Assembly (NCBI GenBank): GCA_017625435.1
Contig: JAGAKX010000013.1
Coordinates: 1 to 64,000 of the forward strand
From: Clostridia bacterium
Lineage (GTDB): Bacteria; Bacillota; Clostridia; Oscillospirales; Acutalibacteraceae
Direction: 5' to 3'
Length of the DNA: 64,000 nucleotides
The notes beneath the pieces were generated by a model. The model saw nothing but the letters and a program-made list of their open reading frames with translations. It had not been told where the DNA came from and did no database searches. Every line of letters begins with the position of its first letter. The stretch's first letter is position 1. The translations under genes and the position numbers were made by a program. Positions 5,809-64,000 of the stretch are shown in pieces.

Positions 5809-5959
5809 TGTAGGGGACGGCGTCCCCGACGTCCCGCATTGATGCAAATGACAATATCTGTATTAATTTCCGTAACAGATAAAAATGTGTCTCTTAGGGT
5901 CATAACTTTTGTATTTGTATTTTCTACCTGCGGGTCGTCGAGGACGCCGACCCCTACAA
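5809..5959. repeat. REPIN-like element 1 (inverted pair of REP palindromes)
   Basis: A REP-type unit at 5809-5841 (TGTAGGGG, palindromic core GGGGACGGCGTCCCC, then GACGTCCCGC) is mirrored by an inverted copy at 5930-5959 ending CCCCTACAA. The 90-bp interior is clearly related to the interior of the element at 6797-6955. Size, symmetry and proximity to a RAYT transposase fit a non-autonomous REPIN/MITE-like element. Confidence 0.8.
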
Positions 5960-6018
5960 GGGTGACTATATTTTTTGTGTCCATCGGGGAACTTTGTGCT
6001 GATTTGCGGTTACCTCAA

Positions 6019-6047
6019 CGGGTCGTCGGGGACGCCATCCCCTACAA
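6019..6047 (-). repeat. Single REP palindrome copy
   Basis: This is a lone copy of the REP unit, in the orientation reading CGGGTCGTCGGGGACGCC then ATCCCCTACAA on the plus strand. Its core GGGGA/TCCCC is palindromic. It lacks an inverted partner of its own. Confidence 0.75.
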
Positions 6048-6102
6048 GGATTTTTTCACAAAACATCCTCACAGAACATTTCTTCTTACCCGAAATTCTC
6101 AG

Positions 6103-6132
6103 GCGGGATGTCGAGGACGCCATCCCCTACAA
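6103..6132 (-). repeat. Single REP palindrome copy next to the RAYT gene
   Basis: A further copy with the same orientation as 6019-6047, beginning GCGGGATGTCGAGGACG and ending CCCCTACAA. It lies about 75 bp upstream of the transposase start, the usual position of REP copies near RAYT genes. Confidence 0.75.
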
Positions 6133-6207
6133 ATGAACATTACACAAAAAAGAAATGATGTTGTAATTTTTCACTTTGTAATGTAAAATATTTCTGAGGT
6201 GAACATA

Positions 6208-6753
6208 ATGGAGAATACAGAAAAGCCAACAAGAAAACGCAATCGTCTTAAAAATTACAATTACAACTGGACAAGCTCATATTTTCTTACGTTATGTACC
6301 CTTGAGCGAAAGTGTATACTGAGCAATGTAATAAAAAAAGTGATTGAAAACAACACCGATTCAACCGAAAAGCTCGTCCCCGTAAACGCTTTCATTGAAC
6401 TAACAAATATCGGCAAGACCGTTGAAAAATATATACTTGCAACAAACGAATATTATGAAAACATTGATATTGAGAACTATGTGATTATGCCGAACCATAT
6501 ACATTTGCTCATTTATATAAAAGACGATAATTCACAAACTAAAGGAGCAAATGCTCTTGTTCCCAAATATGTATCTGCGCTGAAACGATTTATAAACAAA
6601 GAAATCGGACAGAAAATATTTCAACGTTCCTATTACGACCATATAATACGCAACGAAAAAGACTTTAATGAAACATGGGATTATATTGACGCGAATCCTA
6701 TTGTATGGAACAAGGATTTTTTGTACACGGAGGTCGAAAACGGAAAATTCTGA
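6208..6753 (+). CDS. REP-associated tyrosine transposase (RAYT, IS200-like HUH family)
   Basis: The 181-residue protein has the hallmark MPNHIHLLIY motif with the HUH pair H97 and H99, and later the RSYYDHIIRNEKDF block, WDYI and NP-x-x-W typical of RAYTs (COG1943 / Y1_Tnp). Y142 or Y143 is my candidate for the catalytic tyrosine; this is inferred. RAYTs nick single-stranded REP hairpins and are usually domesticated single-copy genes. I chose the ATG at 6208 because TGAGGTG (6195-6201) is a ribosome site; an in-frame GTG at 6199 overlaps that site. Copies of the cognate palindrome flank the gene on both sides (5809-6132 and 6797-6955). The gene looks intact. It is more A+T-rich than the repeats around it. 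Confidence 0.9.
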   Translation: MENTEKPTRKRNRLKNYNYNWTSSYFLTLCTLERKCILSNVIKKVIENNTDSTEKLVPVNAFIELTNIGKTVEKYILATNEYYENIDIENYVIMPNHIHLLIYIKDDNSQTKGANALVPKYVSALKRFINKEIGQKIFQRSYYDHIIRNEKDFNETWDYIDANPIVWNKDFLYTEVENGKF

Positions 6754-6796: not shown

Positions 6797-6955
6797 TTGT
6801 AGGGGTCGGCGTCCCCGACGACCCGCATTGCAATAAAATAAATTGTCTGTATAAAAAATCCCGTGGACTATGCAAATGTGCCTCCACGGGACATAATTTT
6901 TGTATCTTTATTATCTGCCTCCATTTCGGGTCGTCGAGGACGCCATCCCCTACAA
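6797..6955. repeat. REPIN-like element 2 (inverted pair of REP palindromes)
   Basis: The unit at 6797-6826 (TTGTAGGGGTCGGCGTCCCC then GACGACCCGC) is mirrored at 6927-6955 (CGGGTCGTCGAGGACGCC then ATCCCCTACAA). Internal similarity to 5809-5959 includes a shared track around TCTGTAT, AAATGTG and TTTTTGTAT. The two full elements flank the RAYT gene. The interval 6754-7134 has no other gene. Confidence 0.8.
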
Positions 6956-7073
6956 GGAGTATTTTACAGTAGTGCATCTCGGAGAATATTTATCAAAAAA
7001 AAGCCGCAAGGCAATGCACGTTAAATTTTTGCGTATATACGCATTTTTTAACATGTTCAATAAACTAAAAAAA

Positions 7074-15778: not shown

Positions 15779-17557
15779 TTATGCGTTTTTCTGCAGCTTG
15801 TATTTTTCCTTATACTGTCTGTACTCTTCATCAAAAGCATCATTGCCGGACTTTACGGAGCTTAAGTAATTATGTGCATCGTAGCCGTCTGTTGCTGATT
15901 CAATAACCGCAACGGCAATGTTTGAGCAATGATCGGAGATTCTTTCGCAGTTATTAAGAATATCGGAAAGAATGAAGCCGAGCTCAATGGTGCATTCTCC
16001 TGCCTTGAGGCGGTCAATGTGTCTTCTTCTTACCTTTTCCGTAAGACGGTCCACAACCTGCTCAAGAGGCTCTACACGGGCTGCAAGCTCTGCATCATTT
16101 TCTGCATAAGCCTTTGTGGTAAGAGTGATTATTTCAATAAGCGCATCAGTCAGCACCGTCAGCTCATCATAAGCCTGTGAAGAGAAGGAAATCTTCTTTT
16201 CACTCATTTCCTTGCCCGATTCAAGAAGATTCAGCGCGTGGTCACCGAGTCTTTCAAAATTTCCTATGGCGTGAAGCATACGGCCTGTTTTTCTGGAATC
16301 CCCTTCCGAAAGAGAAAGAGCGGAAACCTTCACAAGGAATGAACCGATATCGTCTTCGTAAGCATCAAGAATCTCTTCCTGAAGCTGAAGCCATTCCTCA
16401 GTTTCCTTATCATATTCGCACATAGCCGCAAAGGAGGTAATTATCATCTGCTTTGCGGTTTCTGCCATTTTTACGGTAATATTATCGCACTCACTAACTG
16501 CAACGGAGGGAGTTGCCAGAAGTCTTTCGTCCATAGAAAAAAGATGAATGTTGTTTTTCTTTTCGGCATCCTTGTCCTTCACACAGATTTCCGTCAGCTT
16601 TATAAGGGGCTTTGCAAAGGGACAAAGAACTACCGTAAGAGCCACATTGAATATCGAGTGAATAAGAGCAATGCTCCAGGCTGTTGCAGGCTCTCTGAAA
16701 AGCGGAATATCAAAAGCGGAATCCACAATCCAGAACACCGAAGTAAAGAGAACCGTGCCGATAACATTCAGCGAAGTATGCAAGAAGGCAACACGCTTTG
16801 CCTTGGAGTTTGTACCTATAGAGGAAATAACGGCAGTAACACAGGTACCGATATTCTGACCCATAACAATGGGAATTACCATACCCACATCAATGAGCCC
16901 CGTAAGCGCCAGAGCCTGAAGCATACCGACAGATGCGGCAGAGGACTGAATTACGGCGGTGATAACTGCACCTATAAACACACCGAACAAGGGATTGCTA
17001 AACTGAATAAATACGTTTTCGATACCGGGAATATCCTTTATGGGGTCCATAGCCGAGCCCATAAACTCCATACCGTACATCAGTACCGCAAAGCCCACGA
17101 AAACAGAGCCGAGACTCTTTCTCTTGGAGTTTTTGGAGAACATTACGAACATAACGCCGATAAAGGCAAGTATGGGCGAAAAGTTTTCGGGCTTGAGCAT
17201 CATCATTGCGATATTGTCGCTTTCAATTCCCGAAAGGGACAGTATCCACGCTGTAAGGGTCGTGCCGATATTGGCACCGAAGATGATGAAGATAGTCTGT
17301 GAAAACTGCATTATTCCCGAGTTTACAAGACCCACAAGCATAACCGTTACCGCAGAAGAGGACTGCACGGCAATGGTTATGAGAGCACCGAAAATAATAC
17401 CGAGAATCGGGTTCTTTGTAAACTTTTTGAGAAGCACCTCGAGCTTTCCGCCCGCAAGCTTTTCAAGGTCCGAGCTCATTACGTTCATTCCGAAAAGGAA
17501 AAACGCAAGTCCCAGAAGCATCTGAACAACAGAAGTTATAATCTGTGCAGTATTCAT
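15779..17557 (-). CDS. Na/phosphate cotransporter family protein with PhoU domain
   Basis: The 592-residue protein has two Na/Pi-cotransporter (PF02690) repeats in the first 320 residues, each with the QSSSA signature (AVQSSSAVTVMLVGL; AVIQSSAASVGML), and nine or so membrane segments. Residues about 345-580 are a PhoU-like helical bundle with repeated E-x-x-x-D patterns (NFERLGDHALNL; NCERISDHCSN). It imports phosphate with Na+, and the PhoU part may regulate transport. The start follows GGCAGGAAATATA and is 17 bp after the rRNA methyltransferase gene, which is upstream on the same strand. Confidence 0.92.
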   Translation of the reverse strand: MNTAQIITSVVQMLLGLAFFLFGMNVMSSDLEKLAGGKLEVLLKKFTKNPILGIIFGALITIAVQSSSAVTVMLVGLVNSGIMQFSQTIFIIFGANIGTTLTAWILSLSGIESDNIAMMMLKPENFSPILAFIGVMFVMFSKNSKRKSLGSVFVGFAVLMYGMEFMGSAMDPIKDIPGIENVFIQFSNPLFGVFIGAVITAVIQSSAASVGMLQALALTGLIDVGMVIPIVMGQNIGTCVTAVISSIGTNSKAKRVAFLHTSLNVIGTVLFTSVFWIVDSAFDIPLFREPATAWSIALIHSIFNVALTVVLCPFAKPLIKLTEICVKDKDAEKKNNIHLFSMDERLLATPSVAVSECDNITVKMAETAKQMIITSFAAMCEYDKETEEWLQLQEEILDAYEDDIGSFLVKVSALSLSEGDSRKTGRMLHAIGNFERLGDHALNLLESGKEMSEKKISFSSQAYDELTVLTDALIEIITLTTKAYAENDAELAARVEPLEQVVDRLTEKVRRRHIDRLKAGECTIELGFILSDILNNCERISDHCSNIAVAVIESATDGYDAHNYLSSVKSGNDAFDEEYRQYKEKYKLQKNA

Positions 17558-28446: not shown

Positions 28447-29312
28447 TGAAGAACTTATCAAAAAAACAGAAAATCGTTATAACCGTACTGGCTTCTGTTT
28501 TTCTTATTCTGTTTTCCGTTTACTGTGTTTACGAAAACAATATGCTGACTGTAACGGATTATGAAATAACAAACGAAAAGCTTCCCGGAAGCTTTGACGG
28601 CTTTACGGTTGCACAGATTTCCGATTTTCACAATACCCGCTCGGATTTTCTGAGAGAAAGTGTTCTTGAAGAGGTACAGAGACTGAACCCCGATATAATT
28701 CTGATTACGGGAGATTTTATTGATTCCAGAAAGCCGAAAACGGAGATTTCCCTTGCCTTTGCGAAGGAGCTTGTAAAAATTGCTCCCGTATATTTTGCCC
28801 CCGGCAATCACGAGGCAAGAATTCCCGAAATATACGGCCCCTTTGAAGAAGAGCTTCGCCGTATCGGTGTAAGCGTACTTCGTAATTCCTCAAAAAAAAT
28901 CAACCTCGGCGGTGAAGAAATAAACATCATCGGTGTTGACGATGCCACCTTTTACGGCACACAGGATAAATTTATTTCTACTGCGGAAGCGATAAATGAA
29001 ATAAGCTACGACAAATATCTGTTCACAATCGCACTTTCCCACCGACCGGAGGTATTTTCTGTTTATACAGAGAAAAAACTGGATCTTGTATTTTCGGGAC
29101 ATCACCACGGCGGACAGTTCAGAATTCCGTATCTCGGCGGACTTTATATGCCCACAGAGGGCTTTTTTCCCGACTACTGCGAAGGAGTACATACGGAAAA
29201 TAACACAACAATGGCAGTAAGCCGCGGAATCGGCAACAGCGCATTCCCCATAAGGATAAACAACCGTCCGGAGCTTATTATCGTTACACTCAAAGCAGGA
29301 ATAAACGATTGA
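28446..29312 (+). CDS. Membrane-anchored metallophosphoesterase
   Basis: This 288-residue protein has an N-terminal membrane segment (10-27) and a calcineurin-like core: ISDFHN, ITGDFID, PGNHEAR, SHRPEV and FSGHHHGGQ. Such YkuE-like proteins hydrolyse phosphate esters, possibly lipids, at the outer face. It is translationally coupled to nadC (TGATG). The last codons form a perfect stem with the sequence just after the stop (see 29298-29420). Confidence 0.9.
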   Translation: MKNLSKKQKIVITVLASVFLILFSVYCVYENNMLTVTDYEITNEKLPGSFDGFTVAQISDFHNTRSDFLRESVLEEVQRLNPDIILITGDFIDSRKPKTEISLAFAKELVKIAPVYFAPGNHEARIPEIYGPFEEELRRIGVSVLRNSSKKINLGGEEINIIGVDDATFYGTQDKFISTAEAINEISYDKYLFTIALSHRPEVFSVYTEKKLDLVFSGHHHGGQFRIPYLGGLYMPTEGFFPDYCEGVHTENNTTMAVSRGIGNSAFPIRINNRPELIIVTLKAGIND

Positions 29313-29420
29313 TTCGTTTATTCCTTTAATGATATTCATTCCTTCGGAATGAGTGATATTATTGCTTTCGCAATAGTGATATTGCCCTACAGGCAGTGAT
29401 ATATTTTCCTTCGGAAAATG
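29298..29420 (+). repeat. Hairpin array 1 with GTGATAT linkers
   Basis: Five hairpins occur in a row. The first, GGAATAAACGA/TCGTTTATTCC (29298-29308 with 29314-29324), encloses the phosphoesterase stop codon. Then TCATTCC/GGAATGA, TATTGC/GCAATA, TGCC/GGCA and ATTTTCC/GGAAAAT (29403-29409 with 29413-29419), mostly with TTC-type loops. The four small hairpins are each preceded by the same 7-nt linker (ATGATAT at 29329, then GTGATAT at 29353, 29376, 29396). The rest of the gap to 29510 holds a weaker stem (AAGGC/GCCTT) and the next gene's ribosome site. Confidence 0.9.
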
Positions 29421-29510
29421 TTTCGGAAGGCTCACGCCTTGTTCCGCTTACGCTCTGCCTTATAAAATAAAGTTTCTACAAATTAAAACAACTTCACAGG
29501 AGGATTTTTT

Positions 29511-31454
29511 ATGAGAAACCGTCAGGTACATTTAGACTTTCATACAAGCGGTGCCCTTAAGGTAGGAGAGAAGTTTTCAAAGGAGCAGTTTATTTCTCAG
29601 CTTAAAAACGGACATCTTGATTCAATAACCGTATTTTCAAAGTGCCATCACGGATGGTCATACCATCCCACAGCGGCAAATGAGATGCATCCCGGTCTTT
29701 CCTTTGACCTTTTGGGAGCACAGCTTGAAGCCTGCAGGGAGGCAGGGGCCAACGCACCCGTCTACATTTCCGCCGGCTTCGATGAAAAGGATTATGACCG
29801 CCACCCCGAATGGAGATGGATAAAGTCAAAGAATCCGAAAGAGGTTGAAGAGGCACACAATGAAACACATTTCCATCCGCTTTGCTTCAACACTCCTTAT
29901 CTTGAGAAGCTTTGCTCTCAGGTTGAAGAGGTTATGGAAAAATATAATCCCTGCGGTGTTTTCCTTGATATTATTGCCGCCAGGGTCTGCTACTGTGAAT
30001 ATTGCCTCAGAGATATGAAAAAGCTCGGACTTGATTCCGATAATTACGACGACTGTCAGAAATTTGCGGTTATCACTCTCAATAAATATATGGATGCCGT
30101 CAATGCTTCCGTAAGAAAATACAGCGATACCGCTACAATCTTCCATAACAGCGGACATATACCTAAGGGTAATCACACCGTTATCGGCAAAAACACACAT
30201 TTAGAGCTTGAAAGCCTTCCAACCGGCGGATGGGGATATGACCATTTTCCCCTGTCTGCAGCTTACGTGCGTACTCTCGGAGACAAGGAATATCTCGGAA
30301 TGACCGGTAAATTCCACCAAAGCTGGGGTGAATTCGGCGGATTCAAGCATCCCAATGCACTTATATACGAAACTGCCCTCAGCGTTATGAACGGGGCAGG
30401 CTGCTCCATAGGAGACCAGCTTCATTCCTCGGGTGAAATGAATCCTGCAACATACTCCCTTATAGGAAAGGCTTATGCCCGTATAGAGGAAAGAGAGCCC
30501 TGGCTTAACGGTGCCGTTAATACGGCGGATATTGCGGTGTTAAGCGTTGAAGCAACATCAGATGACAAAGAGGCAAGAGCAGACATAGGCGCAAACCGTA
30601 TGCTTCTCGAAAACAAGCTTTTATATAATTTCATTGATGAAACATCTGATATTTCCGGATATAAGCTTCTTATTCTTCCCGATAACTGCAGAATTTCAGA
30701 CGGTATGCTTGAAAAAATCAGCGCCTTTATTGCAAAGGGCGGAAAGGTTCTGGCTTCCGGAGAAAGCATTATAAGAGACGGAAAATTCATCCTTGATACA
30801 GGTGCCGTATTTACGGGTAAAAACGAATTCTCCCCCACCTACTTTGTTCCCCTTTTTCCGACAGTAAACGGAGACACCGCATACATTATGCGCTGTGATT
30901 CCTATAAAATTGAGGCAGCGGACTGCGAGGTCACGGCTTTAAGGGAAAATCCCTATTTCAACAGAGAAAGAGAGCGCTTCTGCTCTCATATGCACGCTCC
31001 CAACAATGAAGAGGAGCGCTTCCCCGCAGTTGTAATAAAGGGTAACGTTGCTTACATTTCCTGGAATATTTTCACGGCATACGGAGAGCTCGGACACCTT
31101 TGCTTCAAGGAAATTTTTACCGATACCGTAAAAAGACTGACAGGTGACAGCCTAACGGTAAAGACAAACCTTCCCGACAAGGCAGTTATGACCCTTACCC
31201 GTCAGGAAAAAGAAAAGAGAAGTATTCTTCATCTTCTTTTTGCCCACACGACGGTAAGAGGCAGAAATACAGAGGTAATTGAAGATACTGTCCCTCTTTA
31301 TAATGTAAACTGTGAAGTAAAATATGATAATAAGCCCTCAGGGGTTTATCTTGCACCCGAAAAGGAAGAAATCCCCTTTGAATATAAAGACGGCAGGGTG
31401 ATTTTCACGGTACCCGTTGTTGATATTCACGCGATGGCTGTAATTGAAGACTGA
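29511..31454 (+). CDS. Glycosidase-like protein (GHL6-type barrel, beta-galactosidase-trimerisation-like domain)
   Basis: This 647-residue cytosolic protein begins QVHLDFHTSGA, with the D-F-H-T-S pattern of hypothetical glycosyl hydrolase (GHL6-like) TIM barrels. A barrel of about 340 residues includes VFLDIIAARVCYC, SWGEFGG and HPNALIYETALS. It is followed by an alpha/beta layer (340-450; YKLLILPDNCRISDGM and GGKVLASGESII) like the trimerisation domain of family-42 enzymes, and a beta-sandwich end. No signal peptide is seen, so it acts inside the cell. The substrate is unknown; L-fucose isomerase at 37072 hints at deoxyhexose metabolism. CACAGGAGG precedes the ATG. Confidence 0.65.
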   Translation: MRNRQVHLDFHTSGALKVGEKFSKEQFISQLKNGHLDSITVFSKCHHGWSYHPTAANEMHPGLSFDLLGAQLEACREAGANAPVYISAGFDEKDYDRHPEWRWIKSKNPKEVEEAHNETHFHPLCFNTPYLEKLCSQVEEVMEKYNPCGVFLDIIAARVCYCEYCLRDMKKLGLDSDNYDDCQKFAVITLNKYMDAVNASVRKYSDTATIFHNSGHIPKGNHTVIGKNTHLELESLPTGGWGYDHFPLSAAYVRTLGDKEYLGMTGKFHQSWGEFGGFKHPNALIYETALSVMNGAGCSIGDQLHSSGEMNPATYSLIGKAYARIEEREPWLNGAVNTADIAVLSVEATSDDKEARADIGANRMLLENKLLYNFIDETSDISGYKLLILPDNCRISDGMLEKISAFIAKGGKVLASGESIIRDGKFILDTGAVFTGKNEFSPTYFVPLFPTVNGDTAYIMRCDSYKIEAADCEVTALRENPYFNRERERFCSHMHAPNNEEERFPAVVIKGNVAYISWNIFTAYGELGHLCFKEIFTDTVKRLTGDSLTVKTNLPDKAVMTLTRQEKEKRSILHLLFAHTTVRGRNTEVIEDTVPLYNVNCEVKYDNKPSGVYLAPEKEEIPFEYKDGRVIFTVPVVDIHAMAVIED

Positions 31455-40244: not shown

Positions 40245-40372
40245 ATTTTCCGAAAGGAAAATATATCACGCCGTGAGAATCACGGTATATCACTGTTGCG
40301 AAAGCAACAATATCACTTTTTGCGAAGCAAAAAATATCGCTGTCAGAAATTATCAGAATGATGATTTCTGAC
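40245..40372 (-). repeat. Hairpin array 2 with GTGATAT linkers
   Basis: Read on the minus strand, i.e. in the direction of the MATE gene: first a stem GTCAGAAAT/ATTTCTGAC (40342-40350 with 40364-40372) that encloses the MATE stop codon; then TTTTTGC/GCAAAAA, TGTTGC/GCAACA, ACCGTGA/TCACGGC (6 bp core) and ATTTTCC/GGAAAAT. The linkers, read in the same direction, are GCGATAT, GTGATAT, GTGATAT and GTGATAT (plus-strand positions 40334, 40310, 40287 and 40263). Stem sequences differ from array 1 except the last, which has the same stem arms. Confidence 0.92.
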
Positions 40373-63538: not shown

Positions 63539-63613
63539 GCTGGTGTGGCTCAATGGCAGAGCAGCTCATTCGTAATGAGCAGGTTGCAGGTTCGATTCCC
63601 GTCACCAGCTCCA
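63539..63613 (+). tRNA. tRNA-Thr (anticodon CGT), CCA encoded
   Basis: The acceptor stem is GCTGGTG/CACCAGC, D arm GCTC/GAGC, anticodon stem GCTCA/TGAGC with loop TTCGTAA (anticodon CGT, reads ACG), T arm GCAGG-TTCGATT-CCCGT, then T and CCA. The T stem has a C-A mismatch at its third pair and a G-T at the first. A 13-bp terminator follows directly. Confidence 0.93.
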
Positions 63614-63615
63614 GA

Positions 63616-63646
63616 AAAAAGCACTTCGGAAGAAGTGCTTTTTTCA
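63616..63646 (+). terminator. Terminator after tRNA-Thr
   Basis: AAAAAAGCACTTC, loop GGAA, GAAGTGCTTTTTT: a perfect 13-bp stem with T run immediately after the CCA. Confidence 0.92.
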
Positions 63647-63865
63647 ATGAAATAAATCCCTTACGGGATTTATGAAATATCGCTTCGCGATATGAAATAG
63701 CTATCGCTATGCAATACGCTTCGGCGTATGAGGGATTTATTTTATTATGAGCAAAGCGAATAACAAGGTTCTGACGAAGTCAGGTTCTTATTTCACTTTC
63801 TGCGATAGCAGAAAATTTCATAATCCGAAGGATTATTTCATATTTTCCGTCAGAAAATATTTCAT
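63647..63865. repeat. Hairpin array 3 with ATGAAAT / ATTTCAT linkers
   Basis: Left half: linkers ATGAAAT at 63647, 63672, 63692 (ATGCAAT at 63709) separate the stems AAATCCC/GGGATTT, ATCGC/GCGAT, AGC/GCT and ACGC/GCGT, with TTAC, TTC, TATC and TTCG loops. Right half: the inverse linker ATTTCAT at 63815, 63835, 63859 (ATTTCAC at 63790) separates TTTCTGC/GCAGAAA, AATCC/GGATT and ATTTTC/GAAAAT. The middle (63730-63789) has a weaker CTGAC/GTCAG stem. The remaining sequence to 64000 shows no gene. Confidence 0.9.
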
Positions 63866-64000
63866 TAAAAAGCGCTCGGGAAATCTGTCAATATCATTCA
63901 CATAAAAGCATATACCCACTATGACACTTTCAGTTTAACTGTAAAGCTGTCAGGTAGATTTCTTAAAATTTGCAGTACCTTGATTTTTGATATTTCCGTA

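Follow-up and report, generated by a model that had tools for sequence, protein, structure and literature searches.

The question raised by this locus is why hairpins that are unlike in sequence should stand in a row, each behind the same 7-nt linker, and what kind of element they form. The array lies in a 64,000-nt window (the whole stretch of Clostridia bacterium DNA that was analysed, positions 1 to 64,000 of contig JAGAKX010000013.1), between a metallophosphoesterase gene (PF00149; 28446-29312) and a relative of glycosyl hydrolases (29511-31454). It spans 29297-29456 and consists of a 12-bp hairpin followed by four small hairpins, with RTGATAT before each. The external hairpin, AGGAATAAACGA-TTGAT-TCGTTTATTCCT (29297-29308/29314-29325), overlaps the end of the upstream gene, its outer arm and loop being formed by the last codons and the stop codon TGA (29310-29312), and it ends 3 nt ahead of linker 1 (ATGATAT, 29329-29335). 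There follow, all on the plus strand like the preceding features, the mini-hairpin TCATTCC-TTC-GGAATGA (29336-29352; minus strand C(GAA)G), linker 2 (GTGATAT, 29353-29359), TATTGC-TTTC-GCAATA (29360-29375; minus strand C(GAAA)G), linker 3 (GTGATAT, 29376-29382), TGCC-CTACA-GGCA (29383-29395), linker 4 (GTGATAT, 29396-29402) and the inner mini-hairpin ATTTTCC-TTC-GGAAAAT (29403-29419), which is kept in most type-B arms. All the parts described in the initial annotation are present, but of its stems, all said to be palindromic, the one at 29383-29395 is imperfect, and the unit does not stop at the proposed end of 29420; behind the fourth mini-hairpin it continues on the plus strand as GTTTCGGAAG-hairpin-CTTGTTCCGCTTACGCTCT through the conserved centre GTTTCGGAAGGCTCACGCCTTGTTCCGCTTACGCTCT (29420-29456, with a hairpin at 29427-29440). 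The array folds strongly (z = -6.3 against shuffles, with 0 of 200 shuffles as strong), and the window contains 41 instances of RTGATAT, where 14 ± 4 would be expected. It was correctly judged not to be an ordinary terminator, as the array hairpins have no T run behind them and so lack the combination of G+C-rich hairpin and T run that marks an intrinsic terminator.

Positions 29327-29407 (plus strand) match the Rfam model of Gut-1 (RF01706) with 57.5 bits, above the cut-off of 50. Gut-1 was described as a candidate non-coding RNA known from environmental gut sequence only (Weinberg et al. 2010, PMC2864571), and its Rfam entry reads "candidate ncRNA", with no function given. A search of one literature library for Gut-1 found that 2010 description alone and nothing later, and a broader search for a similar element found no match. 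In the genome of the window there are 45 Gut-1 matches, 44 of them besides the window array, and the pattern GTGATATN{6,30}GTGATAT is found 42 times, compared with 0 in a reversed control. Related genomes, which the initial annotation proposed to scan, carry arrays throughout the genus and the order: every one of the 26 genomes in the genus has Gut-1, with between 1 and 77 matches, and across the order it is present in at least 126 of 295 genomes and at least 70 of 149 genera, the order-wide counts being lower bounds obtained with stricter filters. The genomes are drafts, one per species. The copies are kin to each other, so that the counts do not represent independent events. Phage spread was considered as a carrier and rejected, since two array patterns searched against viral contigs matched one contig and none, respectively.

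The array is thus a known Rfam motif and also belongs, as one arm, to a larger mirrored element, both of which had been missed. Many of the Gut-1 matches in the genome of the window form convergent pairs 100-180 bp apart. A full copy, about 250-330 bp long, runs from a terminal palindromic hairpin through an arm of linkers and mini-hairpins to a conserved centre (GGAAG-hairpin-CTTG, TTCCGCTTCGCTCT), and then through a mirrored arm to a second terminal hairpin; the outer end is either such a palindrome or the terminator of the host gene itself. The linkers are mostly of 7 nt (GTGATAT, GTGAAAT, GTGAAGG, GTTATAT, GCGATAT and others). Several full copies have 13-bp inverted ends, AAATCATAATTTA ... 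TAAATTATGATTT, and so possess the terminal inverted repeats of a MITE, although these are not common to all subtypes. Within the window, half copies stand at 29.3 and 40.3 kb, and the similarity of half copies to one another ends at CGCTCT of the conserved centre. The second of them (about 40245-40372, minus strand) has three GTGATAT linkers and one GCGATAT, four mini-hairpins and the external hairpin GTCAGAAATCATCATTCTGATAATTTCTGAC. The copy at 63.6 kb (63614-63867) is two-armed, has TGAAAT linkers, and comprises convergent Gut-1 arms at 63645-63720 (plus) and 63785-63867 (minus). Two copies of genome G002 (L214 and L217) differ in having one mini-hairpin tandemly duplicated. At a further locus of the window's own genome (L283, C45:15800-16900), an element at about 16233-16465 has the usual terminal hairpins and centre with arms made of AGATAATAGATAAAAG-type repeats, without mini-hairpins; at this site G013 carries a hairpin-array element and G010 no element. 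Solo palindromes, TCATAATTT..AAATTATGA, lacking arms and additional to those that bound elements, were seen in G001, G013 and the window's own genome.

Evidence that the element moves comes from near-identical copies and from empty sites. Copies on contigs C16, C58 and C22 of the window's genome share 89-96% identity over about 300 bp while their flanks are unrelated, and G013 has seven copies, 89-96% identical, at unrelated loci. When joined flanks were used as queries against the genomes of relatives, the uvrB-uvrA site, filled in the window's genome, was empty in G013, G010, G001 and G002, and a site on contig C20 of G013 was empty in the window's genome, G001, G010 and G002. A third site, on C29 of G013, contains no element in G010, and there G001 and the window's genome carry elements with the same kind of ends and different interiors. 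Behind the metallophosphoesterase gene itself, none of 22 relatives has an array. The Gut-1 array is therefore an interspersed mobile element found where relatives have empty sites, as expected of a MITE, and the suspicion that it is mobile has been borne out. A consistent target duplication was not found among these sites, the relatives being distant, and TA fits only some of them. At two loci (L188, on C20 of G013, and L080, the uvrB-uvrA site on C58 of the window's genome), a TACGGAGG(T)ATTT run and a ribosome-binding site lie between the element and the start codon, and this run is missing from the empty sites of the relatives. Elsewhere on C58, at about 10 kb and 74 kb (L077 and L079), an 857-bp stretch that includes an element is present twice, the two versions being 92% identical.

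A stop codon frequently lies only a few bases from the start of an element. Where the upstream gene encodes a tRNA or tmRNA, the element comes after the intrinsic terminator, for example as CCA|GAAAAAAGCACTTC..GAAGTGCTTTTTTC|AATGAAAT, and the full copy in the window has the same layout: the tRNA-Thr gene (63539-63613) lies directly ahead of its terminator GAAAAAAGCACTTCGGAAGAAGTGCTTTTTTC (63614-63645), with the element right behind. Terminator followed by element was also the arrangement at 13 of the 20 loci retrieved from the wider order. More generally, 40 of 91 arrays, against 2.7 expected, have their first linker 0-3 nt behind the foot of a hairpin of 7 bp or more, and in these 40 the gap is nearly always 1 nt. 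In G002, near-identical arms are each attached to a different hairpin, several of which are plain terminators, and one of these has a homologous terminator in G013 with no array behind it. At the uvrB-uvrA and C20 sites, relatives have no hairpin in the place of the terminal hairpin. Terminators are therefore a favoured address, and some of the terminal palindromes move with the element.

What is retained in the stems was examined using 380 segments delimited solely by their flanking linkers. Perfect Watson-Crick palindromes make up 291 of them, against 1.25 expected, and the 345 that are at least nearly palindromic comprise 212 sequences. An alignment of 31 segments, assembled with no pairing filter and with near-duplicates thinned by hand, gave a covariation score of 0.960 (0.213 when shuffled, at most 0.235 when slid), with 95% of cells able to pair. 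Among the near-identical copies of G013, changes on both sides of a stem number 32 against 2.4 expected, and are mostly in the terminal hairpins. The stems thus covary among copies, and at one orthologous site (13.1 kb on C28 of the window's genome, and G013) the linkers are identical and the stems wholly different. Neither of the outcomes that the initial annotation named as refuting it, a lack of further arrays in related genomes and stems that fail to covary, was observed. Judged by sequence comparison, the proposal that structure rather than sequence is kept in Gut-1 array stems is supported. RNA helices usually tolerate G.U pairs, whereas the mismatches in the segments (G.T 7, A.C 17) include no excess of G.U.

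The loops point in the same direction. C-G is the closing pair in 161 of 168 distinct perfect hairpins, and the loop is TNC in 78 of 119 triloops and TNNC in 31 of 49 tetraloops, so that 109 of 168 read as GNA or GNNA on the other strand; the second pair is G-C or C-G in 99 of 119, both orientations being equally common. Such a combination of C-G closing with a GNA or GNNA loop is seen in 0 of 56 background hairpins of the window, and arrays from other families of the order have C-G closing in 48 of 51 with the same loop types. The GNA rule does not extend to the terminal hairpins. Extraordinarily stable DNA mini-hairpins are defined in PMC4686876, which cites Hirao and Yoshizawa for d(GCGAAGC), by a GNA or GNNA loop on at least two G-C pairs. 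By sequence, the array mini-hairpins mostly have this loop, the C-G closing pair and at least two G-C pairs, and are predicted to be of this stable kind. The argument rests on that published chemistry because the two strands come out as equally stable in a DNA energy model, the GNA/GNNA bonus not being part of the folding program; a strand difference in predicted energy was accordingly dropped as evidence, neither for nor against. RNA UNCG tetraloops were rejected as the cause of the CTTCGG-like loops, which are of that type in 1 of 49 tetraloops, with the triloops in the wrong register and the second pair running either way.

The original understanding of Gut-1, in which arrays are 3'-UTR stabilisers or free non-coding RNAs and selection acts on RNA folding, is the best placed of the alternatives and still seems unlikely. 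It would account for the strong RNA folding, the strong covariation, the location at gene 3' ends and the Rfam listing as ncRNA, but not for G.U being no more frequent than A.C, for the near absence of UNCG loops, or for the many arrays that lie behind a U-tract terminator, and full elements are mirror-symmetric, so that neither strand is preferred. With arrays often located behind an intrinsic terminator, G.U pairs not enriched, and the GNA/GNNA loops of half copies sitting on the antisense strand, the suggestion of an mRNA 3'-end stabiliser is not favoured. The Gut-1 element is repeated, mirrored and mobile, has freely varying paired stems and DNA-type loops, and lies precisely at gene 3' ends, often one base past an intrinsic terminator, where it causes little harm. 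With a probability of roughly 0.6 the window array is a half copy of an interspersed mobile DNA element, non-autonomous and MITE/REP-like, whose working form would be single-stranded DNA. On one strand the mini-hairpins, with their C-(GNA)-G and C-(GNNA)-G caps, would fold very stably and hold the linkers single-stranded and evenly spaced for recognition by an enzyme provided in trans, which would place the element behind terminators. As only pairing, loop type and linker would matter, the stem letters could drift through paired changes, and template switching within hairpins would probably restore perfect pairing in single steps. A bolder version, considerably less probable, has the element passed on as a shape and not as a sequence: a hairpin-acting enzyme, to which the row of GNA-capped single-stranded mini-hairpins displays the linker, would move it behind terminators and rebuild the palindromes, terminal ones above all, while copying.

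The idea of a hairpin-acting enzyme fits the DNA-type loops, but the search for a mobilising enzyme, which covered IS630 and Y1 transposases, found none. IS200/RAYT transposases (Y1, PF01797) were rejected, as their gene numbers are unrelated to Gut-1 copy number: Gut-1-rich G010, G011 and G001 gave no Y1 hit, and G003 and G005 have Y1 hits with 1-2 Gut-1 matches. The TA-targeting IS630 family (DDE_3, PF13358) was rejected as it is absent from all 26 genomes. The terminal hairpins of G013 pair about 280 bp apart, and inspection of that genome by eye found no autonomous copy with a gene between ends 1-3 kb apart. The window has a RAYT-like Y1 transposase gene of its own (6199-6753, plus strand; PF01797, 29 bits, MPNHIHLLIYI), flanked at about 5809-6135 and 6799-6960 by REP-like palindromes that begin with GTAG and are of the TTGTAGGGGACGGCGTCCCCGACGTCCCGC type; these form a second repeat family, separate from the Gut-1 arrays. 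Slightly less probable than the RNA interpretation is a conventional MITE belonging to a DDE transposon, whose transposase would bind duplex ends and linkers, with the hairpins incidental or tolerated; the 13-bp inverted ends of several full copies would agree with this, and a TA duplication would suit some sites, but the absence of IS630, the single DDE family searched, and of any consistent duplication weighs against it, and the perfection of the palindromes, with closing pair and loop type both fixed, is not incidental. Least probable is a mutational product of little function, with palindromes kept and multiplied by template switching and recombination between copies and with rare, ancient dispersal, which would fit the paired changes without G.U intermediates, the concentration of both-side changes in terminal hairpins and the duplicated mini-hairpin of G002, but leaves unexplained the constant 7-nt linkers, the fixed C-G closing pair with GNA/GNNA loops, and near-identical copies at unrelated sites that are empty elsewhere.

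Read in this way, an orphan Rfam "RNA" becomes one arm of a mobile DNA element that is abundant in gut Clostridia. A functional RNA is usually taken as proven by covariation, which is here accompanied by DNA-type signs (no G.U excess, GNA caps), so that covariation-based RNA discovery can be misled by such elements. The question also becomes testable, as a search for an enzyme that acts on d(C-GNA-G) hairpin arrays and aims them at terminators.

Among known systems, bacterial MITEs such as ERIC, RUP and Correia, with BOX as the modular case, are small, non-autonomous and intergenic, have inverted ends and are foldable throughout. The arrays differ in that their stems are free in sequence and their target is the foot of a terminator, and in that neither a matching transposase (IS630 and Y1 were examined) nor a consistent duplication was found. 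Group IIC introns insert just behind intrinsic terminator hairpins, but the array is far too small to be one and has no intron domains or reverse transcriptase. It was rightly held not to be a CRISPR, which has identical direct repeats and unique, non-palindromic spacers, whereas here the variable parts are palindromic and the constant parts are of 7 nt; the model of CRISPR-DR53 (RF01366) gave a sub-threshold match at 29323-29359 (23.1 bits, cut-off 45), and some members of that family may be hairpin arrays of the Gut-1 kind. REP, BIME and REPIN sequences with their RAYTs (PMC3116915) are similar in being short extragenic palindromes, found as inverted pairs, dispersed without a gene of their own and predicted to act as single-stranded DNA hairpins. 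Theirs is one conserved palindrome with a GTAG/GGAG guide, whereas an array strings 3-5 unlike mini-hairpins together by 7-nt linkers, has no such guide and does not conserve its stems, so that the initial judgement of not a standard REP stands, and the RAYT-like gene of the window is flanked by GTAG REPs and not by Gut-1 arrays. With Gut-1 RNA, the window array and the 44 other genome places share one motif, all matching its covariance model; it was described as a free ncRNA of human-gut metagenomes (PMC2864571), and is here one arm of a mirrored mobile repeat with DNA-type loops at gene 3' ends. The closest chemical likeness is to the d(GCGAAGC) mini-hairpins (PMC4686876), with the same GNA/GNNA loop, C-G closing and mostly a second G-C pair: a known chemical motif, of which many natural instances are here strung together in arrays.
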